DNA of 27,415 nucleotides, from positions 1 through 27,415 of the IMG/VR virus record IMGVR_UViG_3300042346_001544. One strand, given 5' to 3'. Positions 2,231-21,551 of the stretch are shown piece after piece. The stretch comes from a virus. Both the position numbers and the translations under genes were made by a program. The first letter of the stretch is position 1; each line of letters begins with the position of its first letter. The notes below the pieces were generated by a model, which was not told the origin of the DNA, made no database searches, and worked only from the letters and a program-made list of their open reading frames with translations.

Positions 2231-2249
2231 TGTATTGCGTTTGTATTGC
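2231..2249. promoter_or_regulatory. Tandem TGTATTGC direct repeats, operator candidate
   Basis: TGTATTGC occurs at 2231-2238 and again at 2242-2249, 11 bases apart, which is one helical turn. The repeats sit in the 44-bp gap between the divergent RHH gene (start 2219) and the HTH-like gene (start 2264). RHH dimers typically bind such phased repeats. The inverted form GCAATACA recurs at 2627-2634 upstream of parM. Confidence 0.5.
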
Positions 2250-2263
2250 AAAAGCGAGGCGCT

Positions 2264-2509
2264 ATGAGCAGAGGTCGCCCCAGAAATCCACCGCCCGTAC
2301 ATCCTGTAGACGTAGACGCGCTTGAGTCGGTATCACTACAGGACATGATCTACCTTTACGGATGGACGATCGCGGGACTAAGCGAAGCCTTGAGATTCAA
2401 GAGCGAATCGCATGTTCGCCGACTCATTAGCAAGGAGAGAGCGGGGACACCTAGCGATCGGGTTCAGAGATCGTGCTGGTTCCTGCTTAAGTACCAGGAA
2501 TCGCACTAA
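2264..2509 (+). CDS. Small HTH-like DNA-binding protein
   Basis: The 81-residue protein starts at the ATG at 2264; a TTG at 2246 in the same frame lies inside the operator-like repeat and is less likely. After a Pro/Arg-rich leader, residues 25-60 (DMIYLYGWTIAGLSEAL, then SESHVRRLISKERAG) look like a compact helix-turn-helix, with the second stretch as recognition helix. That suggests a Cro-like or plasmid control protein. It is divergent from the RHH gene, shares its control region, and is closed by a strong terminator 18 bases after its stop. It may repress one or both divergent promoters or feed into parM control. No family is assigned with certainty. Confidence 0.6.
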   Translation: MSRGRPRNPPPVHPVDVDALESVSLQDMIYLYGWTIAGLSEALRFKSESHVRRLISKERAGTPSDRVQRSCWFLLKYQESH

Positions 2510-2782: not shown

Positions 2783-4063
2783 GTGGCCGCAGTAAGACAA
2801 AAAACAAAACCGGAGGAACCGATCGCGCCGACAGCCGCGTCGGAATCCTTCCCGAAGTATGCGATCGTCGCGATCGCCCCGGATACCGGAAACGCAAACA
2901 TGAAGGTTTGCGCTCAGGTTCGTGTCGTGGAAGTAACGGGAAGCCGTGTTGTCTCCCAGCAGAACGGATCGGTTCAAACGTTTATCGTTCCGAGCTACGT
3001 GTACGAGTCGTCAACTTCGGTGACGTGTTCGCAGCGCCCCGGTTCGACCGCATTTCAGGTGGTAACCTCTGATGCGGAAGGAGAGAGCGGTCGCTACTGG
3101 TTGACCGGCGAAGCCGCTTTTGGGGCGAATGGCGATGACGCTGTTTTTGTGGGACAGAACGCGAGCAACAAAGTCAACTACGCCCTCCCCACACTCCTGG
3201 GGAATGTAATTTCGGTCGTCCCGAATGATGTCACCGACATCCTCGTGTTTTGCGGGGTCGGAGCCCACAAAAAAGCGATTGGGCAAAACATTGGCCCAAA
3301 GATCAAGGGTCGCCACGTCATTCGACGCCTCGCTTCCCACGGCTCGCTTGAGTCATTTGTAGAGCAATGCAGCATCGAGGTTCACCCGATGCTTATCCCG
3401 GAGTCTCTTGGTGGGGTTCTGACCGGTTTTCAGGATCACAAAGAACTGCTAGGCGATCGCCGGTATCTCGCCTTCGACTTGGGTGGCGGCACCTGGCAAG
3501 TCCTGCTAGGCAAGCAGGGTGAATTACTGGGCGATCCGTTTGAAGGTCGCGAAATCCTGCGAGGCCAAAGCGGAAACCGACTGATCGAAAACTTTGCTCG
3601 ATCGTCTGAACTGGAGTCGGTAGTGGGTTCTGGTGGTTCTATGGGCGCCGAGTCCTTCTCGGGGGTTCGAGAGGCTCTGTACAACTATGACTTCAACAAT
3701 CAGCGCGTTATCTACGCTGGGAAAGATGTCACGCGCCTATGGAAAGAGTATGTCGAGAGTTCCGTGCATCGACTGAAGGATGCGGTCACTCCTTATATGG
3801 ACAGATTTGGTGCGATCGATGCGCCGATCATTGGATTCGGTGGGACGTTCCTGTTCCCCCACTTCCGGGAAGCTGCGTCGATGGTCTTCTCTTACGGTAT
3901 CGGCGACGACGCAACGATTCAGTCCCGACTACTCGTATCAAGCAACCCGCTTTTCGCGAATGCGATCAGCAACTTAGATACGACGGCAGAGGAGTTCGCT
4001 ACTGACATCGAAGTCGCTACCCAAGAGTTTGAAGCGTCGTTGCGTAAGGTTTTGGGGAAGTAG
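2783..4063 (+). CDS. parM: Actin-like plasmid segregation ATPase, ParM family
   Basis: The 426-residue protein starts at a GTG (2783) preceded by AGGAGA. All three actin-fold nucleotide motifs are visible: phosphate 1 APDTGNANMK (D34, G36, K41), phosphate 2 FDLGGGT (about residues 230-236), and the adenosine motif IIGFGGTF (about residues 349-356). Proteins of this ParM/StbA/Alp group polymerise with ATP and push or pull plasmid copies apart, normally through a ParR adaptor bound at a centromere. The length is rather long for ParM (about 320), with a Pro/Glu-rich N-terminal extension of some 25 residues and a loop-rich middle. It heads a compact operon that goes on to membrane proteins and an FtsK-type ATPase rather than to parR. 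The family is clear; the exact role in this element is inferred. Confidence 0.85.
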   Translation: MAAVRQKTKPEEPIAPTAASESFPKYAIVAIAPDTGNANMKVCAQVRVVEVTGSRVVSQQNGSVQTFIVPSYVYESSTSVTCSQRPGSTAFQVVTSDAEGESGRYWLTGEAAFGANGDDAVFVGQNASNKVNYALPTLLGNVISVVPNDVTDILVFCGVGAHKKAIGQNIGPKIKGRHVIRRLASHGSLESFVEQCSIEVHPMLIPESLGGVLTGFQDHKELLGDRRYLAFDLGGGTWQVLLGKQGELLGDPFEGREILRGQSGNRLIENFARSSELESVVGSGGSMGAESFSGVREALYNYDFNNQRVIYAGKDVTRLWKEYVESSVHRLKDAVTPYMDRFGAIDAPIIGFGGTFLFPHFREAASMVFSYGIGDDATIQSRLLVSSNPLFANAISNLDTTAEEFATDIEVATQEFEASLRKVLGK

Positions 4064-4069
4064 GTCGCC

Positions 4070-4432
4070 ATGCGTCACCAGAATCCACACACAGCGGCTC
4101 CGCCTCGCCATCGCCGGATGACGATCGATCCAGTTCCGTTCTCAATAATCGAAAAAATGCTGGGGACGAGCTATCGGGATGTCCTAGCCCTGAAGACGGA
4201 CTGGGAGCTACTGGATTGGGTGGACGCGACACGCCGACTGGTCAATCAAATCCTGACTTATGCCGCCCCGAGACTAACAGAGGAGGATTTGCAAGCAATT
4301 GTAGTTCAAGCTCTGGGGGCGGAAGCACCACAGACTCAGCCTATCCACGGGATGAGACGACTCACCCCGCCGCCGCCACCAGTGGAGAAAAAGACCAACG
4401 CAAGTATTCGCAAGCACTCTATGCGGCTGTAG
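4070..4432 (+). CDS. Hypothetical protein, possible frameshifted membrane anchor
   Basis: This 120-residue product begins 6 bases after parM. Residues 18-85 are mostly helical (FSIIEKMLGTSYRDVLALKT), followed by a Pro-rich stretch (PPPPPVEKK) and a short basic tail. I do not recognise a family. Position directly behind parM makes a filament adaptor or filament-associated protein plausible. Odd: at GAG AAA AAG (4385-4393) a -1 shift enters a frame coding a clear transmembrane helix (ALYAAVAVIGVTVILVLISS) and stopping at 4545. The shifted product would be about 158 residues with a C-terminal membrane segment. Programmed frameshifting, an indel or decay are all possible. If the GTG/ATG choice matters, an internal ATG at 4118 is also in frame. 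Confidence 0.65.
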   Translation: MRHQNPHTAAPPRHRRMTIDPVPFSIIEKMLGTSYRDVLALKTDWELLDWVDATRRLVNQILTYAAPRLTEEDLQAIVVQALGAEAPQTQPIHGMRRLTPPPPPVEKKTNASIRKHSMRL

Positions 4433-4489
4433 CCGTAATCGGCGTCACCGTAATACTCGTCCTGATTTCATCAATATTCGGTAAAACCG

Positions 4490-5299
4490 ATGATTCACAC
4501 CAACACCATCGACGTAACTCCATCGGAGTCCATCGTTTGCCCTGACGGGGAAGTTCTACCAACACCAACCGCAGTTCTTACCGCGATCGCACGGGACACC
4601 CAGATCCCCTTGGCGATTATCCAAAGCAATCGGAAGTTGCAGCAAGCCGCGCAGCAGGTCTTCCGGATGCAAAATCAAGAGGCGCTGGACAAACTTCAAC
4701 AAGTCGTTGACAGTCTCGGAAACCTCGCCGCCGCCGATCGTCGTGATGCGCGAGCCATTGATCGGGCGATCGCACCGATCACCAAATCGATCACCATGAT
4801 CGCTCAACGGGTCGCAGAGAACAGCCAAGGCATCAAACAGCTAGGCGATCGGGTGACAGCACTGGAAAGTAGCTTGCCGACCGCACGAGAAGCTTACCTG
4901 ATGGGCAAGGTGAACGGGATGGAGGCAGCTCTTCAGTTGCAAGGCCAGCCCAGCGTCACCATCAACAACACCAATGCCACCAATACGAGTCAGCAGTCAG
5001 GCAGCACTTACAATCCTCGACTGCGGCTTGAGGGATACGACGCTGAGCTTCCGATCGCCTACTACGTCCGCCCCAACCCCGTAACCGGGCGGGAGGAAGA
5101 GTGCGCGATGCTCCGACCTATCCCAGCAGGAGACGAAAAGCTCTACACCGATCTGTACGGATCTATCGATCGGATGCTCCAGACCCGGATGAACGAACGT
5201 CGCGGAGTAGAAAAGATGTCCATCACGGGTGGACATGTCTTGATCGCGATCTTCCTCGCCCTCTTCCTCTCTGTCCTCGGTACCGTTCTAAGCGACTAA
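4490..5299 (+). CDS. Tail-anchored coiled-coil membrane protein
   Basis: The 269-residue protein is unrecognised by family. Residues 45-140 are Gln/Ala-rich heptad-like helix (QQAAQQVFRM, LDKLQQVVDSLGNL, RVTALESSL), a probable coiled coil. A short Asn/Thr-rich linker (NNTNATNTSQQSG) leads to a compact domain at 175-240. The C-terminus is a single hydrophobic helix (about 247-267, HVLIAIFLALFLSVLGTVL), with no N-terminal signal, so it should be tail-anchored with the bulk in the cytoplasm. It lies between parM and the FtsK-type ATPase and would be a natural membrane tether for either. The ATG at 4490 lies inside the -1 frame extension of the previous gene. Confidence 0.7.
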   Translation: MIHTNTIDVTPSESIVCPDGEVLPTPTAVLTAIARDTQIPLAIIQSNRKLQQAAQQVFRMQNQEALDKLQQVVDSLGNLAAADRRDARAIDRAIAPITKSITMIAQRVAENSQGIKQLGDRVTALESSLPTAREAYLMGKVNGMEAALQLQGQPSVTINNTNATNTSQQSGSTYNPRLRLEGYDAELPIAYYVRPNPVTGREEECAMLRPIPAGDEKLYTDLYGSIDRMLQTRMNERRGVEKMSITGGHVLIAIFLALFLSVLGTVLSD

Positions 5300-5366
5300 C
5301 CCGATCAACCCGCTCTCGTTTCTCAGTTCAAGTTTCAAGCTAGCAAAAATTCAAAGGTTCACTACT

Positions 5367-6080
5367 ATGGCTTTCAATTCACGAGCACCTCACTCCACCA
5401 CCACCCGCCCGATGGGCAGCCCGCAGACCGAACTCCCCTTGGATGAGGATTTTGGTGCAGCACCGACCGCTTCTCGTTCTGCTAAAACATTCCGCCCGAG
5501 TATCCCGAGCTTGCCGAACCTACCGGTTAGTATCGACCTTTCCGGTATCAGCCTACCCAGCTCGTTCTGGGGACTGTTACTCCGAGCTGCGGCGATCGGT
5601 ACTGTCTTTCCAATCTTAGGCGTCCCGTTTGTTTCGGGAGTAGGTCGATCAATCCTTGACGCTGGATACTCCGCCTACGGAGAGCATGTTGTTCGCGACA
5701 TTCTAGTGCGAGTTGACGGCGTTCCGATGACGCTAGAGATTCCCAAAGGGCAGATCTTTGGTGATGACGCAGGCTATGCAGCAATGCAAGGCAACATCCC
5801 CCTCCCCCTAGGTGCTTTTGAAGTCCAGGTTGTCGCCGAAGCTCTGAAAGGCTCGCTGGTAACCGCGATCGTCCTTTCCAGCCTGGGCGTTTACTACAAA
5901 AATCGCGCCACCGGAAAGAATGATCGCCAGCTAGGTCAAACACTTAGCGACCTAGCGCTGTTCTTGCTGGTATTCAGTATCACCTCAGCCGCCACCGTCC
6001 TGGATTTAGATCCGGGTAAGCAAGTTCGCTTCGATATTCCGTTCCTCAGTACCGAATCTCCCACCGATCGTGTGGGCTAA
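5367..6080 (+). CDS. Multi-pass membrane protein of unknown function
   Basis: The 237-residue protein has a disordered, Ser/Pro-rich N-terminus (1-60) and three hydrophobic segments, about 65-92 (FWGLLLRAAAIGTVFPILGV), 162-178 (LVTAIVLSSLGVYY) and 193-213 (LALFLLVFSITSAATVL). A soluble region of about 70 residues with a beta-like VRVDGVPMTLEI lies between the first two. I do not recognise the family. It ends 4 bases before the FtsK-type gene, so the two are likely translated together and may form a complex at the membrane. Confidence 0.7.
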   Translation: MAFNSRAPHSTTTRPMGSPQTELPLDEDFGAAPTASRSAKTFRPSIPSLPNLPVSIDLSGISLPSSFWGLLLRAAAIGTVFPILGVPFVSGVGRSILDAGYSAYGEHVVRDILVRVDGVPMTLEIPKGQIFGDDAGYAAMQGNIPLPLGAFEVQVVAEALKGSLVTAIVLSSLGVYYKNRATGKNDRQLGQTLSDLALFLLVFSITSAATVLDLDPGKQVRFDIPFLSTESPTDRVG

Positions 6081-6084
6081 ATCT

Positions 6085-7974
6085 ATGCAAACCACTGGTC
6101 TGTCCGCTGCGTCGCTCCAGAAGTGTCAGAACTACATCGCCGGTCAGCTAATCCCTTGGGAGCAGAAGATCCGGGAAGCGACAAATGCTTATATAGCGAC
6201 GCAGGACATTGAGGTGTTTCGCCCTGCCTTCAATGCGATTTGCAGCAAAGTCCCGTCGGGCCTTACCCCGGACGAGGAGAAGTACATCTACGAACACCCC
6301 GACCGAATCGTCGAAGAAGTTAGCTGCGAGATTGACCTGTCGCTAGGTCGCCCCCCGCTATTCCCGCACGCCGCGAACAAACGTGCGATCGTACAGCCGG
6401 TTACACCAGCAAAGCCGGCAAGCACGCTATCAATGCCGATCGGCATCACGGGTATAACGACAACTCCGGCTAGCGGCTCTACCCAGATGCAGTTGCCAAC
6501 GCTCGTACCCAAGACTACCCTTGAGGCGCAGGTACTAGAGGCGATCAAGAAGGTGGGACTGCCGATGCCGACCGGCATTGAAGTCATGGATCTACCTGTC
6601 TTGCTTCGGGTCAACCTCGAACTTGGGTTTGGGGACAACGAAGATACTCAGTATCAAAAAAAGACAGAGCAATTACGACGCGCCTTAGCCAAAACAACTC
6701 GGATCGTAGATGCTTCAACCGATCGTGAACCCAAGGTAACGTTCAATGAAGACGGCGATCTTTCCCTGATCTTCGTCAAGCGGGAAGCAAAATGGAATTT
6801 CCCGATGCTTTCCTCGGTTATCAACGACGACTTCGTCGGGAAGTACAAGGGGAAAGGCTTGACGATGTTCCTCGGCATCGATGAGGACGGCAAGCCGATG
6901 GTGGTAGACCGTCGTGACTACTCTTGCCTGGTGCGGTGGTCGGGGATTACCAATAGCGGCAAGGGTGAGAGCGGACTACTGGATATCTTCTGGCTGCATT
7001 CAACCCAGACTAAACAAACCTGCGAGATCTATATCCACGATCCAAAACGGGTTGATTTTGAGCCGCTCGCGGGGCTAAACCTAATCCAGTCTGTGGGGAC
7101 GAGTAGTACCGACTTTGTCAAATTAATCGTCAAAACTCACAAAGAGCTAAGACGCCGCCAAAATCTATTCGTGACGGCGCGAGCAAAGAAGATTGAGGAG
7201 TACAACCAGAAGGTTCCAGCGAACGCCTTGCCGTTCATCCTACTGAAAACGGACGAGGTTATCTCAACGATCCTTGACCTTCAATCCAACCCGGAGATCA
7301 TCGGCGAGGTCCGCCCTGACTTTGTCGAAATGAAGATTCGCGGCACAGGCGATAGCGCCGTAGAGGAACCTAGCTATACAAAATGCTGGCGACGGTTTGA
7401 GAACTTACTGTTTGATATCGCGTCGCAAGCTCGTTTTGCAGGTATCCACTGGGATGCGATCGCTCAACAGCAAAAAGCCGACGCTTTGGACACGCGAATC
7501 CGAGATCAAGCCTCAATTGCAATCTCCTTCCAGGTCGCCACATCAAGCGACTCGCTACTAGCGATCGGGCAGACGACGGGATGGGGTGGAGCCCATCGCC
7601 TCTCGGGGAAAGGGGATGCACTTGTCCGACTGGAAGGTCGTGTCACTCGCGTATACATGCCTCGGGTTGATGATCACCTAAAAGCCGACCTCCTTGAACA
7701 CAGCGAAATTCAGATGGCTCCGAAGCCTGCACTAGCGATGCCGGTCGCGCTATCCACTCCGACCTTTGCTACTTTCGGGTTGAGCGACCCGGCGACTACT
7801 CTGCTCTCTCGGGTGGTAACGACAAAGAATCTGAGTGTTGAGAAGCTGCGGGAAACAGCCAAAGCGCAGCAGGCGATGTCCGCAAGCCATCCCATGATCG
7901 CCTTGTCGATGTTTGCGACCTCCTCGCCTGACGCGGTTGAGCTGGTTCGATGGCTACTAGGAGAAGCGGCGTAA
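6085..7974 (+). CDS. FtsK/HerA-type DNA translocase-like ATPase
   Basis: The 629-residue protein starts at the ATG 6085; an in-frame GTG at 6070 would overlap the previous gene. Its C-terminal half has the FtsK/SpoIIIE core: a P-loop-like GITNSGKGE (residues 287-295, Lys293), a Walker B-like FILLKTDEV, and the sensor region typical of FtsK, GIHWDAIAQQQKADALDTRIRD followed by a helical stretch and SGKGDALV. FtsK proteins are hexameric motors that pump double-stranded DNA; relatives act in conjugation as coupling proteins. Odd points are Gly in place of Ser/Thr after the P-loop Lys, and a Walker B with two extra residues (KT) before DE. There is no N-terminal membrane domain; the small membrane proteins around it could supply the anchor. 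Family assignment is good; substrate and direction are unknown. Confidence 0.8.
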   Translation: MQTTGLSAASLQKCQNYIAGQLIPWEQKIREATNAYIATQDIEVFRPAFNAICSKVPSGLTPDEEKYIYEHPDRIVEEVSCEIDLSLGRPPLFPHAANKRAIVQPVTPAKPASTLSMPIGITGITTTPASGSTQMQLPTLVPKTTLEAQVLEAIKKVGLPMPTGIEVMDLPVLLRVNLELGFGDNEDTQYQKKTEQLRRALAKTTRIVDASTDREPKVTFNEDGDLSLIFVKREAKWNFPMLSSVINDDFVGKYKGKGLTMFLGIDEDGKPMVVDRRDYSCLVRWSGITNSGKGESGLLDIFWLHSTQTKQTCEIYIHDPKRVDFEPLAGLNLIQSVGTSSTDFVKLIVKTHKELRRRQNLFVTARAKKIEEYNQKVPANALPFILLKTDEVISTILDLQSNPEIIGEVRPDFVEMKIRGTGDSAVEEPSYTKCWRRFENLLFDIASQARFAGIHWDAIAQQQKADALDTRIRDQASIAISFQVATSSDSLLAIGQTTGWGGAHRLSGKGDALVRLEGRVTRVYMPRVDDHLKADLLEHSEIQMAPKPALAMPVALSTPTFATFGLSDPATTLLSRVVTTKNLSVEKLRETAKAQQAMSASHPMIALSMFATSSPDAVELVRWLLGEAA

Positions 7975-8174
7975 TGAATTTTTATCCCGACCCCCTTGGC
8001 CGGGGTTACGTGGCCGACTTTTATCTACCAAACGGAACGATCTTTCGCGAGCTGCGAGCCCATGACCAGCTCACCTATCCCGAATATTCGATCGCTGTAC
8101 CGCAGCCGCCGCAGCGATCGTTTCTCGCCGAGGCGATCGCTGTCCTCGGGGCATTATTCTCACTACTCAGGTAA
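7974..8174 (+). CDS. Small hypothetical protein, 66 aa
   Basis: The ATG at 7974 overlaps the FtsK stop in TAATG, with AGGAGA just upstream, which strongly supports a coupled gene. The first 50 residues (MNFYPDPLGRGYVADFYLPN) look like a small beta-rich fold with many aromatics. The last 15 (AEAIAVLGALFSLLR) form a short hydrophobic helix that could sit on or in the membrane. No family recognised. It is part of the parM-FtsK operon. Confidence 0.6.
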   Translation: MNFYPDPLGRGYVADFYLPNGTIFRELRAHDQLTYPEYSIAVPQPPQRSFLAEAIAVLGALFSLLR

Positions 8175-8179
8175 TACCT

Positions 8180-8914
8180 ATGTCTACAGAACCCGTCTAT
8201 ATCGAACAAAAACCTACTCGCGTGATTGTCAACGCAGCCCTGATCGGAATCTCAGAGCAGGTAAGCCGAATCTGCTGCTACTGGTACACAGACATCTCGC
8301 AAGACCCTTTCCCCGTGACAGTGGAAGAGTATCGACGCCTTGGCGTGGATCAAAGCTCTCAGCACGGAGTAATACTCAAGTTTTCGGTAGACGACTACCT
8401 GGCAGCCAAGAAAATGTGCCTTGACCATTATGAGGTCTGTGGCATGAAAGAATTCTCTGATTTTGAGTATCTGCTTGGCGTCATGCAAGGCGCGACAAAC
8501 GAGATCAACACCAACCTCCTTGCCCTCCTAACTCAATACGAAAAAGGCTGTCACGATGGAGCTACACTTCGGGAACACCTTGTCGGTGAACGCGAAATGT
8601 CCGAAGAGATCGAGCGGATCAAAATCCGACTGTTGGTTCTTACTGGGATCGATCTTTCTGTAGGGGGGGTGCAGCAGGAAAGCTCAATCAAAAAACATCT
8701 AATGTGGGCGTCCATTCTCGTAGTTGCGGCTCTCACCACAATGATTCTCTGGGGATACAAAGGGGTGTTTGTTATCGCGACTTGCGAGCTAATTTTCTCT
8801 GCCCTCAAGAAAACACTTCATGAGGTATGGCTAAGCATAATGGCGCAGGTCGCTTTCCTTTGCTTCGTGATTTGGGCGGCGAAGGGTCTTGCGATTCAAA
8901 TCGCCGGGGGTTAG
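8180..8914 (+). CDS. Membrane protein with cytoplasmic helical domain
   Basis: The 244-residue protein begins 5 bases after the previous stop. Residues 1-165 are soluble, with a helical stretch rich in Glu/Arg (EMSEEIERIKIRLLVL). Hydrophobic helices follow at about 174-191 (MWASILVVAALTTMILWG), 193-208 (GVFVIATCELIFSAL) and 220-240 (MAQVAFLCFVIWAAKGLAI). I recognise no family. It belongs to the same operon, and with its neighbours could build the membrane part of the translocase complex. Confidence 0.65.
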   Translation: MSTEPVYIEQKPTRVIVNAALIGISEQVSRICCYWYTDISQDPFPVTVEEYRRLGVDQSSQHGVILKFSVDDYLAAKKMCLDHYEVCGMKEFSDFEYLLGVMQGATNEINTNLLALLTQYEKGCHDGATLREHLVGEREMSEEIERIKIRLLVLTGIDLSVGGVQQESSIKKHLMWASILVVAALTTMILWGYKGVFVIATCELIFSALKKTLHEVWLSIMAQVAFLCFVIWAAKGLAIQIAGG

Positions 8915-8916
8915 CC

Positions 8917-9165
8917 GTGAGAAAGATCACAAAAGATCGTGTAAGACACCTACGGATACGCATCGCAGAGAAGTGTTTCTTCCCGATTACCGGCCAAAAG
9001 GATCGTTTGTTCTATTTTTGGGAACAACAAACCGGCTGGAAGTATTTAGTAACAAGCTCGATTCTGTCGGCAATATTAATCGTCGCGGTTATCTTTATTG
9101 CTGTGCTTACGATCCTATACTGCCTGCTGTTTGATATACTTGAAGCGATCGCGACTGTGGACTAA
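8917..9165 (+). CDS. Small single-pass membrane protein
   Basis: A GTG at 8917, two bases after the previous stop, gives 82 residues: a basic N-terminus (RKITKDRVRHLRIRIAEK), then one strong transmembrane helix near the C-terminus (ILSAILIVAVIFIAVLTILY). The frame is open upstream to 8827, but that start is buried deep in the previous gene. No family recognised. It is the last gene of the parM operon; the terminator follows 10 bases later. Confidence 0.6.
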   Translation: MRKITKDRVRHLRIRIAEKCFFPITGQKDRLFYFWEQQTGWKYLVTSSILSAILIVAVIFIAVLTILYCLLFDILEAIATVD

Positions 9166-9174
9166 GGCTCAGAG

Positions 9175-9205
9175 AAAAGCCCCGGCATTATCGTCGGGGC
9201 TTTTT
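9175..9205 (+). terminator. Rho-independent terminator of the parM operon
   Basis: AAAAGCCCCG (9175-9184) pairs with CGGGGCTTTT (9195-9204) around a 10-base loop, followed by a short T tract. It separates the operon from the convergent gene at 9211-9456 and, with its A run, may stop both strands. Confidence 0.88.
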
Positions 9206-9210
9206 GTTTG

Positions 9211-9456
9211 TCATTCTTCGGGTGGAATTCCCATTCTTTGAGCAAAAAATGCCTTCGTGATGATATTTTTTCGATACCAATCTGTGAGAATTGACCGAAG
9301 GATTTCTTTTTGTTCAATGGGGTTTGACAAGTTGAAGAAGAGATTCAGGTCTGACTCGATCCGAAGGCTTTCTTCTAGTCGAATTTCTCGAAAATACGGT
9401 AAGTCGCTGGTCATAGGTTCCGCTAGTCGCGAAAAGCTGGGTTTTGTGTTGCTCAT
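9211..9456 (-). CDS. Small hypothetical protein, regulator candidate
   Basis: The 81-residue protein starts at the ATG 9456; an upstream GTG in frame (9486) falls inside the dyad at 9464-9499 and is less likely. The sequence is acidic and helical, with DLNLFFNLSNPIEQKEIL and a C-terminal YRKNIITKAFFAQRMGIPPEE that looks like the end of a small helix-turn-helix or helical bundle. It is not a family I can name. Standing alone, divergent from the helicase gene and next to a perfect palindrome, it may be the autoregulator of that pair. Confidence 0.6.
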   Translation of the reverse strand: MSNTKPSFSRLAEPMTSDLPYFREIRLEESLRIESDLNLFFNLSNPIEQKEILRSILTDWYRKNIITKAFFAQRMGIPPEE

Positions 9457-9463
9457 GCTGGCA

Positions 9464-9499
9464 CAATGGTGTAAAAGCACCAACACTTTTACACCATTG
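9464..9499. promoter_or_regulatory. Perfect 14-bp dyad, operator candidate
   Basis: CAATGGTGTAAAAG (9464-9477) and CTTTTACACCATTG (9486-9499) are exact reverse complements around an 8-base spacer. The dyad is in the 75-bp gap between the divergent small gene (start 9456) and the helicase (start 9532). It lacks a T tract and precedes genes on both sides, so an operator is more likely than a terminator. Confidence 0.65.
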
Positions 9500-9531
9500 C
9501 CAAGAATATTAACGTTTACAGGGAGCCAACC

Positions 9532-11394
9532 GTGAACGCAAGCCTTCCGCTGCTTGACCTGCCTGTTCTCTCGCAGCCACTAACCGTCAATAGACCAACC
9601 AAGACCCCATTTCCTCACCAAGTTAAAGCCGTGGAGGAGATGGAGGACAAACTGCTGCGTCACAACGACATCCTGCTGTGGGGAGCAACCGGCGTCGGCA
9701 AAACCGTAACTCAATGCCTTTTAGCGATCGGGCGAGCCTTGCAAGGCCAAAAGGTCGTCATTTTGCTACCGCTGGCAACTTTGCCGATCCAGTTTGAGGA
9801 AGAACTTCGATCGCTGGGTTGGCCGGACTCTCAACGCGGATCGATCTGGAATGGAGACGAGATCCGGGTTGATGCGCCGATCGTGATCGCAATGGCACCC
9901 ACCATCCGATCTCGCCGATACTTGCTCGAACGACTATCCCCCGATCTGGTCATCGTGGACGAGGCACACGAGCAATACTTTGAGGGATTTGTCTCTACGA
10001 TCCGAGAGGATCACTGGGCGAAACCGAAATGGGTATGGGCAACAGCGACACCGTGGCAGCTCTCCCCAAAGCGGGCTTATACCAGAATCTCAGAAGAAGC
10101 CGTGGTACGGCTGTTCGGCACGATGCGGGAAATCATCAACGCCGGTTTTCTCGTTCCGCCACGGGTTCGCGCTGAGAACGGGCTTGACCCGGAAAAGCTG
10201 GCAAGCATTGAGCTAAGCGCCGCTGACAACCTTCGCGCGGTAGACGCCAAGATATTAAAGACGGATGAGTTTCTGGAGAAATGCGCTCGCATCATCCAGG
10301 AGCATGGCGGACACTGCTATCGAATGGCCGCGCTGTGTACCGATACGGAACAAGCGGATCTGTTCGCTCAAGTTTGGCAGAGACTCCACCCTGATCGCGG
10401 CGTAACGATCCTTCATTCCAAAGTTGCTGAGGTCGAATGGCACAACCGGATGAAACGGTGGAAGCGAGGCGATGCGTGGCTAATGCTCTCGATCGGGCAG
10501 GTCTTAACCGGGTTTGATTGGAAGCCGCTTGACGGTCTGGCGTGGCTGCGACCGACATCGTCTCCTAACCTTTGGGTTCAAGGTTGTGGTCGCCCTGCCC
10601 GTATTTGCAAGGAAACGGGCAAAACTGAGGCGATCATCCTAGATCTCGTTGGTAATACCAGTCGGGTTGGCCGAATTCTGACCGTCGCAAACCGTAAGCC
10701 ACAACTCAAGGAATCAAACCGCAAGTCGGCACCACCGCCGGACAAAATCTGCCCGAAGTGCTTTACGCCAACCAGTGTGTTCTCTGCGTTCTGCCCCAAC
10801 CCGGAATGTGATCACGAGTACACCGTCAGTCAGCTCGATCTAGATGGAGAGGAAGACGCTCCGTTTGGCGATATTCCAGACGAGGATCTACTCGCGGCGG
10901 TAAACAAAACCCGAGGGCAACTGAAGTCAGCCTTTACCCGATGGGGAAATGGCGGTTCGCCAGGTAACCGGATCAAGATTATCAACAAGCTGCTAGATCA
11001 GTTTCCGGGCGAAACACTGAACTACCTTTACCAGTGGCTACGTGGCTCGGTGTTTCGCGGCGAAACCGGCCCCGCCGCGCAATGCGAATTTCTCGCTTAC
11101 CTGCATTCCTGCGAACAGCGGATCATCCCCGGCTGGGTTGCGAATCAGTTCGCGATCGAGTTCGGTTTTAAACTAACCGATCATGCCGAGATTACCGGGC
11201 ATCAGCTCCTAGGCGTACCCGCATACGCGACCAAGGATCACATCGTCGCAGCCTATCGCGCCGCGATCCAGAACTGCGATGATCCGGAAGCTGAAAAGCT
11301 GCTGCGCTGGGCGTACGATCGGGCGATCGCTACGGCTAAGCCGGGGCTACCGGCTGATGAACTGCACGGCCACTACGGACTACTTCAGTACTGA
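9532..11394 (+). CDS. SF2 DEAH-type helicase with zinc ribbon and J-like C-terminus
   Basis: The 620-residue protein (GTG start) has superfamily 2 helicase motifs in order: Q-like FPHQ at 27-30, Walker A GATGVGKT at 51-58, DEAH at 143-146, TAT at 171-173, and motif VI QGCGRPAR. The second RecA lobe is followed by a zinc ribbon with four Cys (C407, C410, C421, C426). Beyond it, a helical domain (450-540) and a region like a short J-domain (LLGVPAYATKDHIVAAYRAA) without a clear HPD extend to the end. This layout matches the phage/plasmid DEAD-box helicases related to the restriction-enzyme and Hel308-like groups used for DNA unwinding in replication or recombination. It is the only gene in its transcription unit besides two small ORFs. 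Confidence 0.8.
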   Translation: MNASLPLLDLPVLSQPLTVNRPTKTPFPHQVKAVEEMEDKLLRHNDILLWGATGVGKTVTQCLLAIGRALQGQKVVILLPLATLPIQFEEELRSLGWPDSQRGSIWNGDEIRVDAPIVIAMAPTIRSRRYLLERLSPDLVIVDEAHEQYFEGFVSTIREDHWAKPKWVWATATPWQLSPKRAYTRISEEAVVRLFGTMREIINAGFLVPPRVRAENGLDPEKLASIELSAADNLRAVDAKILKTDEFLEKCARIIQEHGGHCYRMAALCTDTEQADLFAQVWQRLHPDRGVTILHSKVAEVEWHNRMKRWKRGDAWLMLSIGQVLTGFDWKPLDGLAWLRPTSSPNLWVQGCGRPARICKETGKTEAIILDLVGNTSRVGRILTVANRKPQLKESNRKSAPPPDKICPKCFTPTSVFSAFCPNPECDHEYTVSQLDLDGEEDAPFGDIPDEDLLAAVNKTRGQLKSAFTRWGNGGSPGNRIKIINKLLDQFPGETLNYLYQWLRGSVFRGETGPAAQCEFLAYLHSCEQRIIPGWVANQFAIEFGFKLTDHAEITGHQLLGVPAYATKDHIVAAYRAAIQNCDDPEAEKLLRWAYDRAIATAKPGLPADELHGHYGLLQY

Positions 11395-18983: not shown

Positions 18984-19101
18984 GACCGCGCAATATTGCA
19001 ACTTGCTTTGGTTGGTGGATCGTGACGCTTGAGAGAATGGGTCGGTGCTGCTTTGGTCGGGGCGCATCTCCAGTTGCCAACCTTTGCTTGCGGAGATTTT
19101 C

Positions 19102-19872
19102 ATGTTTCTTAGTTCACGCCAGATTGCGACACTGTCCACCCCGATCGGCGTGGGGTGCTTGATCTTTGCTGGCGCTGCGTTCTTCCAAGATCCCGAAGAC
19201 TGGGATCGGTTTGGTTATTTTTGGGCGAACCAGGATTTGTTTGGTCTGGCCTGCTTTATCTGGGCGATCGTTGCTTTTTTGTTGCGCTGGCAGCAGCAGG
19301 AACACCCCGAGATTTGGTCGGCATTCCTGATGGTTTCCGGAACAGCTTACGGTGCGTTTGCGGCGGCATTTGCATTTCAAGGGAGTATCACTGGGGTTAA
19401 ATGGGGCTTGACCTGCGCGTTGTTTTGCTGCGAAGTAAACGAACTTCACGCCATCATCTCGCGACTGAAGCTTGGCGATAAATTTGAGCAAACATCTCGA
19501 TCGCGCAACCTTCAGAGAGCGTCCCAAGCGTGGTTGCTTTTTGTCCTAGGGCTTGGGGTCGCACTGGTGCTCAGCGGCCACGGTTCCATTCCGTGGCAAT
19601 CCCTCGCCAGTGGTTTATCCTTGCTGGCGGGTGTTGGTACCGCCGCAACGAAGATGTACGACACCTACCAAAAAATCGCGATCGCTGCCACCCCGAAAGG
19701 TGAAGACCGCTTACCACCAATCCCCATCCCGATCCAAGCCTTGGCAGAGGTGAACAGCTCGTTGCAGTCCGAGCTGGAGTTCAAGTCGGCGGAGATTACG
19801 CGATTGCGCGAGACCATCGTTCGTATTCGTTCCCGTCTAGCCCCTGAAGAAAACACCGAACTGCCTTATTAG
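19102..19872 (+). CDS. Multi-pass membrane protein
   Basis: The ATG 19102 has GGAG at 19092-19095; the longer frame from 19045 lacks a signal. The 256 residues contain five or six hydrophobic helices, including IGVGCLIFAGAAFF, LFGLACFIWAIVAFLL, FLMVSGTAYGAFAAAFAF, WLLFVLGLGVALVLSG and SLLAGVGTAAT. A soluble C-terminal tail follows with a coiled-coil-like EVNSSLQSELEFKSAEITRL. I cannot name the family. It lies just before the GGDEF-EAL gene (20 bases between) and may be co-transcribed and functionally linked to it. Confidence 0.65.
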   Translation: MFLSSRQIATLSTPIGVGCLIFAGAAFFQDPEDWDRFGYFWANQDLFGLACFIWAIVAFLLRWQQQEHPEIWSAFLMVSGTAYGAFAAAFAFQGSITGVKWGLTCALFCCEVNELHAIISRLKLGDKFEQTSRSRNLQRASQAWLLFVLGLGVALVLSGHGSIPWQSLASGLSLLAGVGTAATKMYDTYQKIAIAATPKGEDRLPPIPIPIQALAEVNSSLQSELEFKSAEITRLRETIVRIRSRLAPEENTELPY

Positions 19873-19892
19873 CCATCTACCGCCAAACTATC

Positions 19893-21551
19893 GTGATCTT
19901 CCTTTTTTGTGCTCACAAAATCCTTGCTCAGATATTTTCTGCTGCCCCGATCGGGCTTGCGACGCTACGCCGATCAGCGAATAGCACCGACCTTGTGTGG
20001 CGACGGTGTTCGCAGTTTGGCAAGGAGGATCTAGGCTTCGATCCGGTCGGGCAGTCACTAAAGTTGACACATCCATCGGGGTGGGAAGATCGCATCCAGC
20101 GATTCATTGAGGTACTGGATACCGGGATACCTATACTGCGTGAGACGGTCTCCTATTGTGATACTTTCACCGGGATTGAACGATCGTGCGTTCTCTCCTT
20201 GTTGCGGCTTGACTGGAATACCGCGTTGATGTGCTGGGTGGATGTCACGATCGAGCATAAAGCAGCAGCGGAGATCGCTGCGGCACGAGATTTGCTTAAG
20301 GCCGAAATCGAGACGGACGCCCTAACCGGGGCCGGTAGTCGAGCAAAACTGAAAGCCTTGGTTCGGTACGGTGAACCTCCGGTCGGGACGATCGCGATCG
20401 ACCTAAACCGTTTTAAGTCAATCAATGATGGTATCGGGCACAACGCGGGTGACGAGTTACTACGATCCGTCGCAGCACGGCTGCAATCCCGGCTTTCCCC
20501 GCACGAACACCTCTTCCGCCCAGCGGGGGATGAGTTCATAATCCTGATCCAGTCACCAGAAAAGCCCGAACTACAGCTTGCACGAGCGGAATCGATCGTC
20601 TCGGTCTTGGAAGAGCCGTTCTGGATTGATCGCCATGAAGTGCGGATTTCAGCTTCAGCGGGCGTCGCCAACCATAGCGCGGGCGATCTCGAATCACAGC
20701 TTGCCGCAGCCGATCGTGCCATGTACGTCGCCAAGCATTCAGCTCGTGGGCATAATGCTTGCAGCCTTTGGTCGGAAGAACTAGTCGAGGTAAACCGAGA
20801 AAAGCAGCGGATCTCGATCGACCTACGCCGCGCGGTCGCAACTTGCGAGGAGTTTGAGCTGTTTTATCAACCGGTCGTGTCGCTTTTAACGAAGAAACCG
20901 GTTGGCGTTGAAGCGTTGCTGCGCTGGAATTCACCAACATTAGGGGCGGTGCCGCCGGGTGTCTTCATCCCGCTAGCAGAAGCTTCTGGCGAGATTTACG
21001 AAATCTCTGAATGGGTACTGAAGCGAGCCATCCTTCAATCGAAAGCCTGGGGAGAGCGCTTTGAGATTGCTGTAAACCTTTCCCCGTGGGACTTAGAACG
21101 CAAGGGGTTTCGCGATCGGTTGCTTACCTTGTGCGACAACGTGGGTATCTCGCCTAGTTCGATCGCTTTAGAGATTACGGAGCGGGCGGTGCAATCGGAT
21201 TTATCGCATTTCGAGTCGGTACTAACGTCCCTAGCGGAATGCCGAATCTTCCTGAAACTCGACGACTTTGGTACCGGCGATTCTGGTGTTGCACGGATCG
21301 CTTCTGCTATCCCGTGGCATGAAATCAAGTTTGATCGAACACTTCTTCCTACCTCAAACATGGATGAGCGGCGGGTTGATGTTTGTTGTGGGCTGATCGC
21401 GCTGTGCGATCGCCTGGACATTTCGACCTTAGCGGAGGGCGTCGAAACCAAAGAGCAGGCCGATCTATGCCGTCATCTTGGTTTCGATACCGCTCAGGGC
21501 TACTATTTTTCTCGCCCCATGCCAGCTCACGAAATCGAGCTAGACCTTTGA
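19893..21551 (+). CDS. GGDEF-EAL protein, cyclic di-GMP turnover
   Basis: The GTG start gives 552 residues. Residues 10-125 look like a PAS-type sensor (IFSAAPIGLATLRR). The GGDEF domain follows with DALTG at 142-146 and the signature changed to AGDEF (211-215). The EAL domain (about 320-545) keeps every catalytic residue I can place: EALL (E340), the Asn of NLSPWDLE, the Glu of EITERA, the two Asp of LDDFGTG, the Lys of IKFDR, the Glu of AEGVE and the Gln of QGYYFSRP. The likely net activity is c-di-GMP hydrolysis, with the GGDEF part acting as regulator or weak cyclase. Being on a mobile element is unusual; it could alter host motility or biofilm. The 3' end overlaps the convergent gene by 25 bases. 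Confidence 0.88.
   Translation: MIFLFCAHKILAQIFSAAPIGLATLRRSANSTDLVWRRCSQFGKEDLGFDPVGQSLKLTHPSGWEDRIQRFIEVLDTGIPILRETVSYCDTFTGIERSCVLSLLRLDWNTALMCWVDVTIEHKAAAEIAAARDLLKAEIETDALTGAGSRAKLKALVRYGEPPVGTIAIDLNRFKSINDGIGHNAGDELLRSVAARLQSRLSPHEHLFRPAGDEFIILIQSPEKPELQLARAESIVSVLEEPFWIDRHEVRISASAGVANHSAGDLESQLAAADRAMYVAKHSARGHNACSLWSEELVEVNREKQRISIDLRRAVATCEEFELFYQPVVSLLTKKPVGVEALLRWNSPTLGAVPPGVFIPLAEASGEIYEISEWVLKRAILQSKAWGERFEIAVNLSPWDLERKGFRDRLLTLCDNVGISPSSIALEITERAVQSDLSHFESVLTSLAECRIFLKLDDFGTGDSGVARIASAIPWHEIKFDRTLLPTSNMDERRVDVCCGLIALCDRLDISTLAEGVETKEQADLCRHLGFDTAQGYYFSRPMPAHEIELDL

Follow-up and report, generated by a model that had tools for sequence, protein, structure and literature searches.

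A compact operon encoding a divergent actin-like protein, membrane proteins and an FtsK-like ATPase on a probable cyanobacterial mobile element

We analyzed IMG/VR record IMGVR_UViG_3300042346_001544 (27,415 bases, positions 1–27,415; hereafter the window) and found that positions 2783–9165 hold a compact transcription unit encoding an actin-like protein, an ATPase of the FtsK/HerA fold and a set of membrane proteins; ahead of it lies a structured leader of low GC content that bears repeats. Based on the bounded operon, the actin-like motifs, the FtsK domain, the membrane segments and the position of the leader repeats – which lie where parC sits in parMRC – we tentatively favor reading the operon as a membrane-anchored, actin-based DNA positioning or segregation module that belongs to a plasmid-like or phage-like element of a cyanobacterium, and give this reading somewhat less than an even chance. 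It is from operon structure only that we infer that the parts act together.

Eight open reading frames (ORFs), all on the plus strand, fill the operon with short gaps or overlaps (successively 6, 57, 67, −11, −1, 5 and 2 nucleotides (nt)). The actin-like (ALP/ParM-like) gene (2783–4063; 426 amino acids (aa), GTG start) is followed by ORF2 (4070–4432; 120 aa), ORF3 (4490–5299; 269 aa), ORF4 (5367–6080; 237 aa), the FtsK/HerA-type ATPase gene (6070–7974; 634 aa, no transmembrane segment, start possibly at ATG 6085), ORF6 (7974–8174; 66 aa), which overlaps the ATPase stop codon (TAATG), ORF7 (8180–8914; 244 aa) and ORF8 (8917–9165; 82 aa). Strong terminator-like hairpins are predicted on both sides, at 2526–2561 before the operon and at 9174–9205 after it, the latter resembling an intrinsic terminator with a 13-bp stem and a T tail. 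Promoter-like sites are fewer than in shuffled sequence, and only one, weak, forward site falls within the operon. This organization agrees with an earlier sequence-only reading of the window, which described one compact operon running from parM to a terminator.

The first gene very likely encodes a highly divergent actin-like protein, a call that stems from motif columns and pairwise alignment with ParM, not from a family profile. Its product contains the motifs DTGNANMK at 34, PES at 205–207, DLGGGT at 232 and IIGFGGT at 349. These provide phosphate-1, phosphate-2 and adenosine motifs in order and with actin-like spacing (D34-G36-K41, D232-G234-T237 and G351-G353), a three-motif set that occurs in none of 324 control ORFs of at least 150 aa. 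The three nucleotide-binding motifs share alignment columns with the ParM proteins of both R100 and pSK41, PES with that of R100 only. In global alignment to R100 ParM the protein outscored all of its 300 shuffles (z 4.2), and in alignment to pSK41 ParM 299 of 300 (z 3.1); a control alignment of one ParM with another gave a z of 7.1. Sequence searches of Pfam (ALP_N, MreB-like_C, StbA_N), NCBIfam and the PDB yielded no identification, the match to a PHROG partition family was marginal (0.075), and a profile comparison against only two ParM proteins was not significant while picking the correct segment. The ParM identity is in this way weaker than the sequence-only reading put it: it is supported by motifs and alignment, and receives no support from family models or the PDB.

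The assignment of the fifth gene product to FtsK/HerA is secure and upholds the earlier prediction: it matches PF01580 (FtsK_SpoIIIE) above the cut-off (E 5e-6; 26.6 bits against 24), phrog_1358 (1e-30) and FtsK in the PDB (1e-7). We compared its motifs with those of eight FtsK proteins from plasmids, phages and chromosomes, nine sequences in all. Its P-loop, GITNSGKGE, has no Ser/Thr after the Lys, at a position where all eight read GK[ST], and AQQQ replaces a TQRP motif that all eight contain; the PDB FtsK also keeps both GK[ST] and TQRP. The Walker B motif, LLKTDE, is followed by an insertion. One base change could explain the GKG, not the AQQQ. From these motifs the ATPase may be slow, regulated or inactive. 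The earlier label of a DNA pump exceeds the evidence, and we treat a DNA-moving role as a hypothesis. PADLOC matches of the ATPase to SspH, a protein of much greater size, reflect P-loop resemblance in general, and we do not take them as a sign of a defense role.

An FtsK-like ATPase accompanied by small membrane proteins on a mobile element is also the composition of the TraB/Spd systems of Streptomyces plasmids, in which the two are co-transcribed (PMC12857230). The operon could by analogy be a unit for transferring double-stranded DNA, with the ATPase and membrane proteins forming a cell-to-cell or septal channel to which the actin-like protein delivers DNA. R1 ParM offers a precedent, as it promotes conjugation and binds two ATPases, the coupling protein TraD and TraC (PMC4949242), and the NCBIfam TraB model NF041214 weakly matches the window ATPase (0.025). 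This match reaches 13 bits against a cut-off of 800, however, and ordinary FtsK scores higher; the window ATPase is no near relation of TraB, its P-loop and TQRP motifs are altered, and the window genes that were scanned yielded neither a relaxase nor any other gene for transfer. We consider such a transfer unit unlikely. To our knowledge, no actin-like gene has been reported in TraB/Spd systems.

The operon encodes four or five membrane proteins. ORF3 combines a coiled coil, to which matches are only weak, with a C-terminal transmembrane segment at 242–269, and ORF4 has about three transmembrane segments and no family match in Pfam, PHROG or NCBIfam; the two correspond to the tail-anchored coiled-coil protein and the three-helix membrane protein of the sequence-only reading. 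That reading closed the operon with three small genes, two of them encoding membrane helices. The helices are present, with two or three C-terminal transmembrane segments in ORF7 and one strong helix in ORF8, and ORF6 and ORF8 are small; ORF7, by its length, is not.

ORF2 likewise encodes the small protein described earlier, consisting of a small, probably helical domain and a proline-rich linker, and probably has a membrane part as well. The coding signal, as judged from codon usage and base position, exits the ORF2 frame near 4340–4390, sits in the −1 frame at about 4370–4450 and then resumes with the frame of ORF3. The −1 frame continuation (4394–4545, plus strand) contains a strong transmembrane helix, AAVAVIGVTVILVLISSIF, with a KD19 of 2.74, a value reached in none of 572 tiles of known non-coding frames, and there is no start codon near this tail. 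The frame junction contains GAG AAA AAG ACC, with an A_AAG in it, and no significant frameshift-stimulating stem was detected downstream. ORF2 thus probably runs on in the −1 frame to end in a transmembrane tail; the frame change could come from a programmed −1 frameshift, from a mutation in nature or from an error of assembly.

The frame change and the altered ATPase motifs would also fit a decaying element whose unrelated genes merely happen to be transcribed together, with a pseudo-ATPase and an ORF2 broken by a true frameshift. Every ORF other than ORF2 is nevertheless intact, closely spaced and of coding-type base composition, and we regard this explanation as very improbable.

If read through, ORF2 would yield a small membrane-anchored protein made right after the actin-like protein, like FcmC after FcmB in filamentous cyanobacteria. 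FcmB derives from the ParM-type actins of plasmid partition and is kept at the membrane by FcmC, the product of the next gene (PMC12645912), and it is to this published description that we liken the operon. Membrane-bound actin-like filaments might accordingly alter host cell shape or envelope growth here, with the ATPase serving DNA independently. The FcmBC loci checked by those authors are, in contrast, chromosomal and consist of two genes; they function in cell shape and include no FtsK-like ATPase, whereas the actin-like gene of the window lies on a mobile element beside a DNA ATPase. A cortical filament of this kind has, in our estimate, a slim chance of being correct.

The leader before the actin-like gene (2626–2763) comprises a near-palindrome, TGCAATACATGTATATTGCA, at the left edge of a long imperfect hairpin. 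The hairpin has 34-nt arms (2641–2674 and 2730–2763) that are 82% complementary, and its region is low in GC (40%). The predicted fold of 2636–2768 (133 nt; −43.4 kcal/mol, z −5.49) was matched by none of 200 shuffles, the minus strand folds better still (−55.8 kcal/mol), and no Rfam family was found in the region. We regard the leader as a candidate centromere/operator or structured leader.

Divergent from the operon, a gene on the minus strand (1920–2219) encodes a 99-aa ribbon-helix-helix (RHH)-like protein with the pattern TTSVRLDSGLRKRADDASVV...LNTLIVIALEDYL. It weakly matches the phrog_18157 transcriptional repressor (0.0094) and has no Pfam or NCBIfam match, and a single-sequence AlphaFold model was uninformative on its fold; it may be a repressor or, like ParR, an adaptor that binds a centromere. 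Two direct TGTATTGC(G/A) repeats (2232–2250, plus strand) lie between this gene and a small putative DNA-binding gene (2246–2509, plus strand), whose product has no Pfam, PHROG or NCBIfam match and which is followed by the terminator-like site at 2526–2561. The GTATTGC element is common to the promoter region of the RHH-like gene and the near-palindrome, where a third, inverted copy of GTATTGCR occupies 2626–2633. The whole window contains three GTATTGCR sites, all in these two intergenic regions, against 1.15 expected window-wide – an enrichment that is only suggestive, as the element was picked after looking. Upstream of the actin-like gene there are these three sites and the large hairpin, and no long repeat array.

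In the DNA positioning module that we favor, the RHH-like protein, the 2246–2509 gene product or ORF2 would bind the repeat and hairpin region as a centromere, and the actin-like filament would capture the resulting centromere-protein complex. ORF2 with its −1 frame tail, the tail-anchored ORF3, or both, would fix the filament or its end to the cytoplasmic membrane. An FtsK-like hexamer anchored by ORF4 and ORF7 would grip the element DNA at the membrane; given the altered catalytic motifs, this ring may act more as a clamp or docking ring than as a fast pump. The outcome would be an element tethered and segregated at the membrane. A more elaborate proposal, to which we assign a low probability, is a novel type of segregation or transfer machine, in which the actin-like filament, a membrane adaptor made by −1 frameshifting and the modified FtsK-like ring would assemble into a single complex at the membrane and dock the element DNA there.

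Several observations weigh against a positioning module. The candidate centromere repeats are few, amounting to three short copies compared with the ten repeats of R1 parC, and there is no recognizable ParR among the proteins of the operon. A single-sequence AlphaFold model of the actin-like protein reached a pLDDT of only 35, and the P-loop and TQRP motifs of the ATPase depart from those of every FtsK compared. Lastly, no relative in which the operon parts travel together was found among plasmids, phages or IMG/VR contigs.

Scans of IMG/VR for close relatives of the actin-like protein, the ATPase, ORF3, the neighboring helicase, the Rep-like protein and the primase recovered no sister element, and tblastn against plasmids and phages recovered no homolog of the actin-like protein or of any small protein. 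The sole match in one scan of genome contigs was a chromosomal FtsK of a Spirochaetales metagenome-assembled genome, and an ALP_N scan of Spirochaetes was empty. Where cyanobacterial plasmids encode an XisF-type recombinase, they carry ParA/ParB or lack an operon of this type. We observed that three large cyanobacterial plasmids (L018, L019 and L020, around 3000–10500) cluster small genes, an M23 peptidase gene, a lysozyme-like gene and FtsK, with a terminase-like gene in two of the three. These look like an undescribed transfer or phage-derived cluster, and they do not match the layout of the operon.

A conserved module was found in the Cylindrospermopsis phages Cr-LKS4 and CrV-01T and in five IMG/VR contigs (at 6605–11497 of L004, and in L005 and L010–L014), where a helix-turn-helix (HTH) gene, a coiled coil, small membrane genes and FtsK follow in fixed order. 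This module is the closest counterpart of the operon that we found: its order recalls that of the operon, the phages are also cyanobacterial, the window ATPase matches theirs by profile with 96% probability, and the window is itself filed as a virus record. The operon could therefore be a phage-type module for host takeover, membrane remodeling or virion assembly, with the actin-like gene as an upstream passenger. Only the ATPases are homologous, however; the accessory proteins of the operon have no match in the phage module, which lacks an actin-like gene and whose ATPase has canonical motifs and an N-terminal membrane stretch. The window ATPase, moreover, scores higher against chromosomal FtsK than against the phage proteins, and no structural phage gene was recognized among the window proteins scanned. 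We think it doubtful that the operon is such a module.

Among known actin-based systems, ParMRC of R1/R100 and pSK41 similarly has an actin-like gene leading a short operon, structured or repeat DNA directly upstream and a small gene after parM. The window operon differs in having no recognizable ParR or ten-repeat array and in adding membrane protein genes and an FtsK-like ATPase; we know of no partition system with membrane anchors or motors. In the AlpAC-alpS system of Corynebacterium prophage CGP3, an actin-like protein is again encoded on a phage-like element, and AlpC/AlpA moves prophage DNA by means of sites within its own promoter (PMC5539076), a location where the window operon also has possible binding sites; but AlpAC consists of two genes and includes no membrane proteins or ATPase.

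In the open-access literature we found no operon described that unites an actin-like gene with genes for membrane proteins and an FtsK-like ATPase, and the sequence-only reading likewise knew of no system so arranged. The cluster is real and undescribed, and it counts as a variant of known systems until relatives or experiments tie its parts into one machine. How filaments of actin-like proteins are coupled to membranes and to DNA motors is largely open. If the parts do act together, the operon would join type II partition to FtsK-type ATPases and offer a small cyanobacterial system for studying the coupling of filament, membrane and DNA.

The host is very probably cyanobacterial, given 26 copies of the HIP1 octamer GCGATCGC (typical of cyanobacteria), of which base composition predicts fewer than one, and given the nearest full-length matches to the window's recombinase. 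Full-length plasmid matches to this recombinase (81–100% of the query) occur only in cyanobacteria, and the best three are annotated XisF. Other window genes encode DnaB, a DnaG-type primase, an O-like replication protein, a ResIII helicase, RusA, a cytosine methylase fragment and a GGDEF-EAL protein, and the record has no terminal repeats. As neither a phage structural gene nor a relaxase was recognized among the proteins scanned, the record, although listed as viral, may represent a plasmid or an integrative element. Its genes for replication, recombination and partition-like functions look plasmid-like.

Outside the operon, a perfect 14-nt inverted repeat, CAATGGTGTAAAAG, with an 8-nt loop (9464–9499) lies upstream of the ResIII helicase gene and is a likely operator. 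At 19045–21551, a membrane protein gene is followed by the GGDEF-EAL protein gene, an arrangement that on a mobile element suggests possible control of host c-di-GMP.

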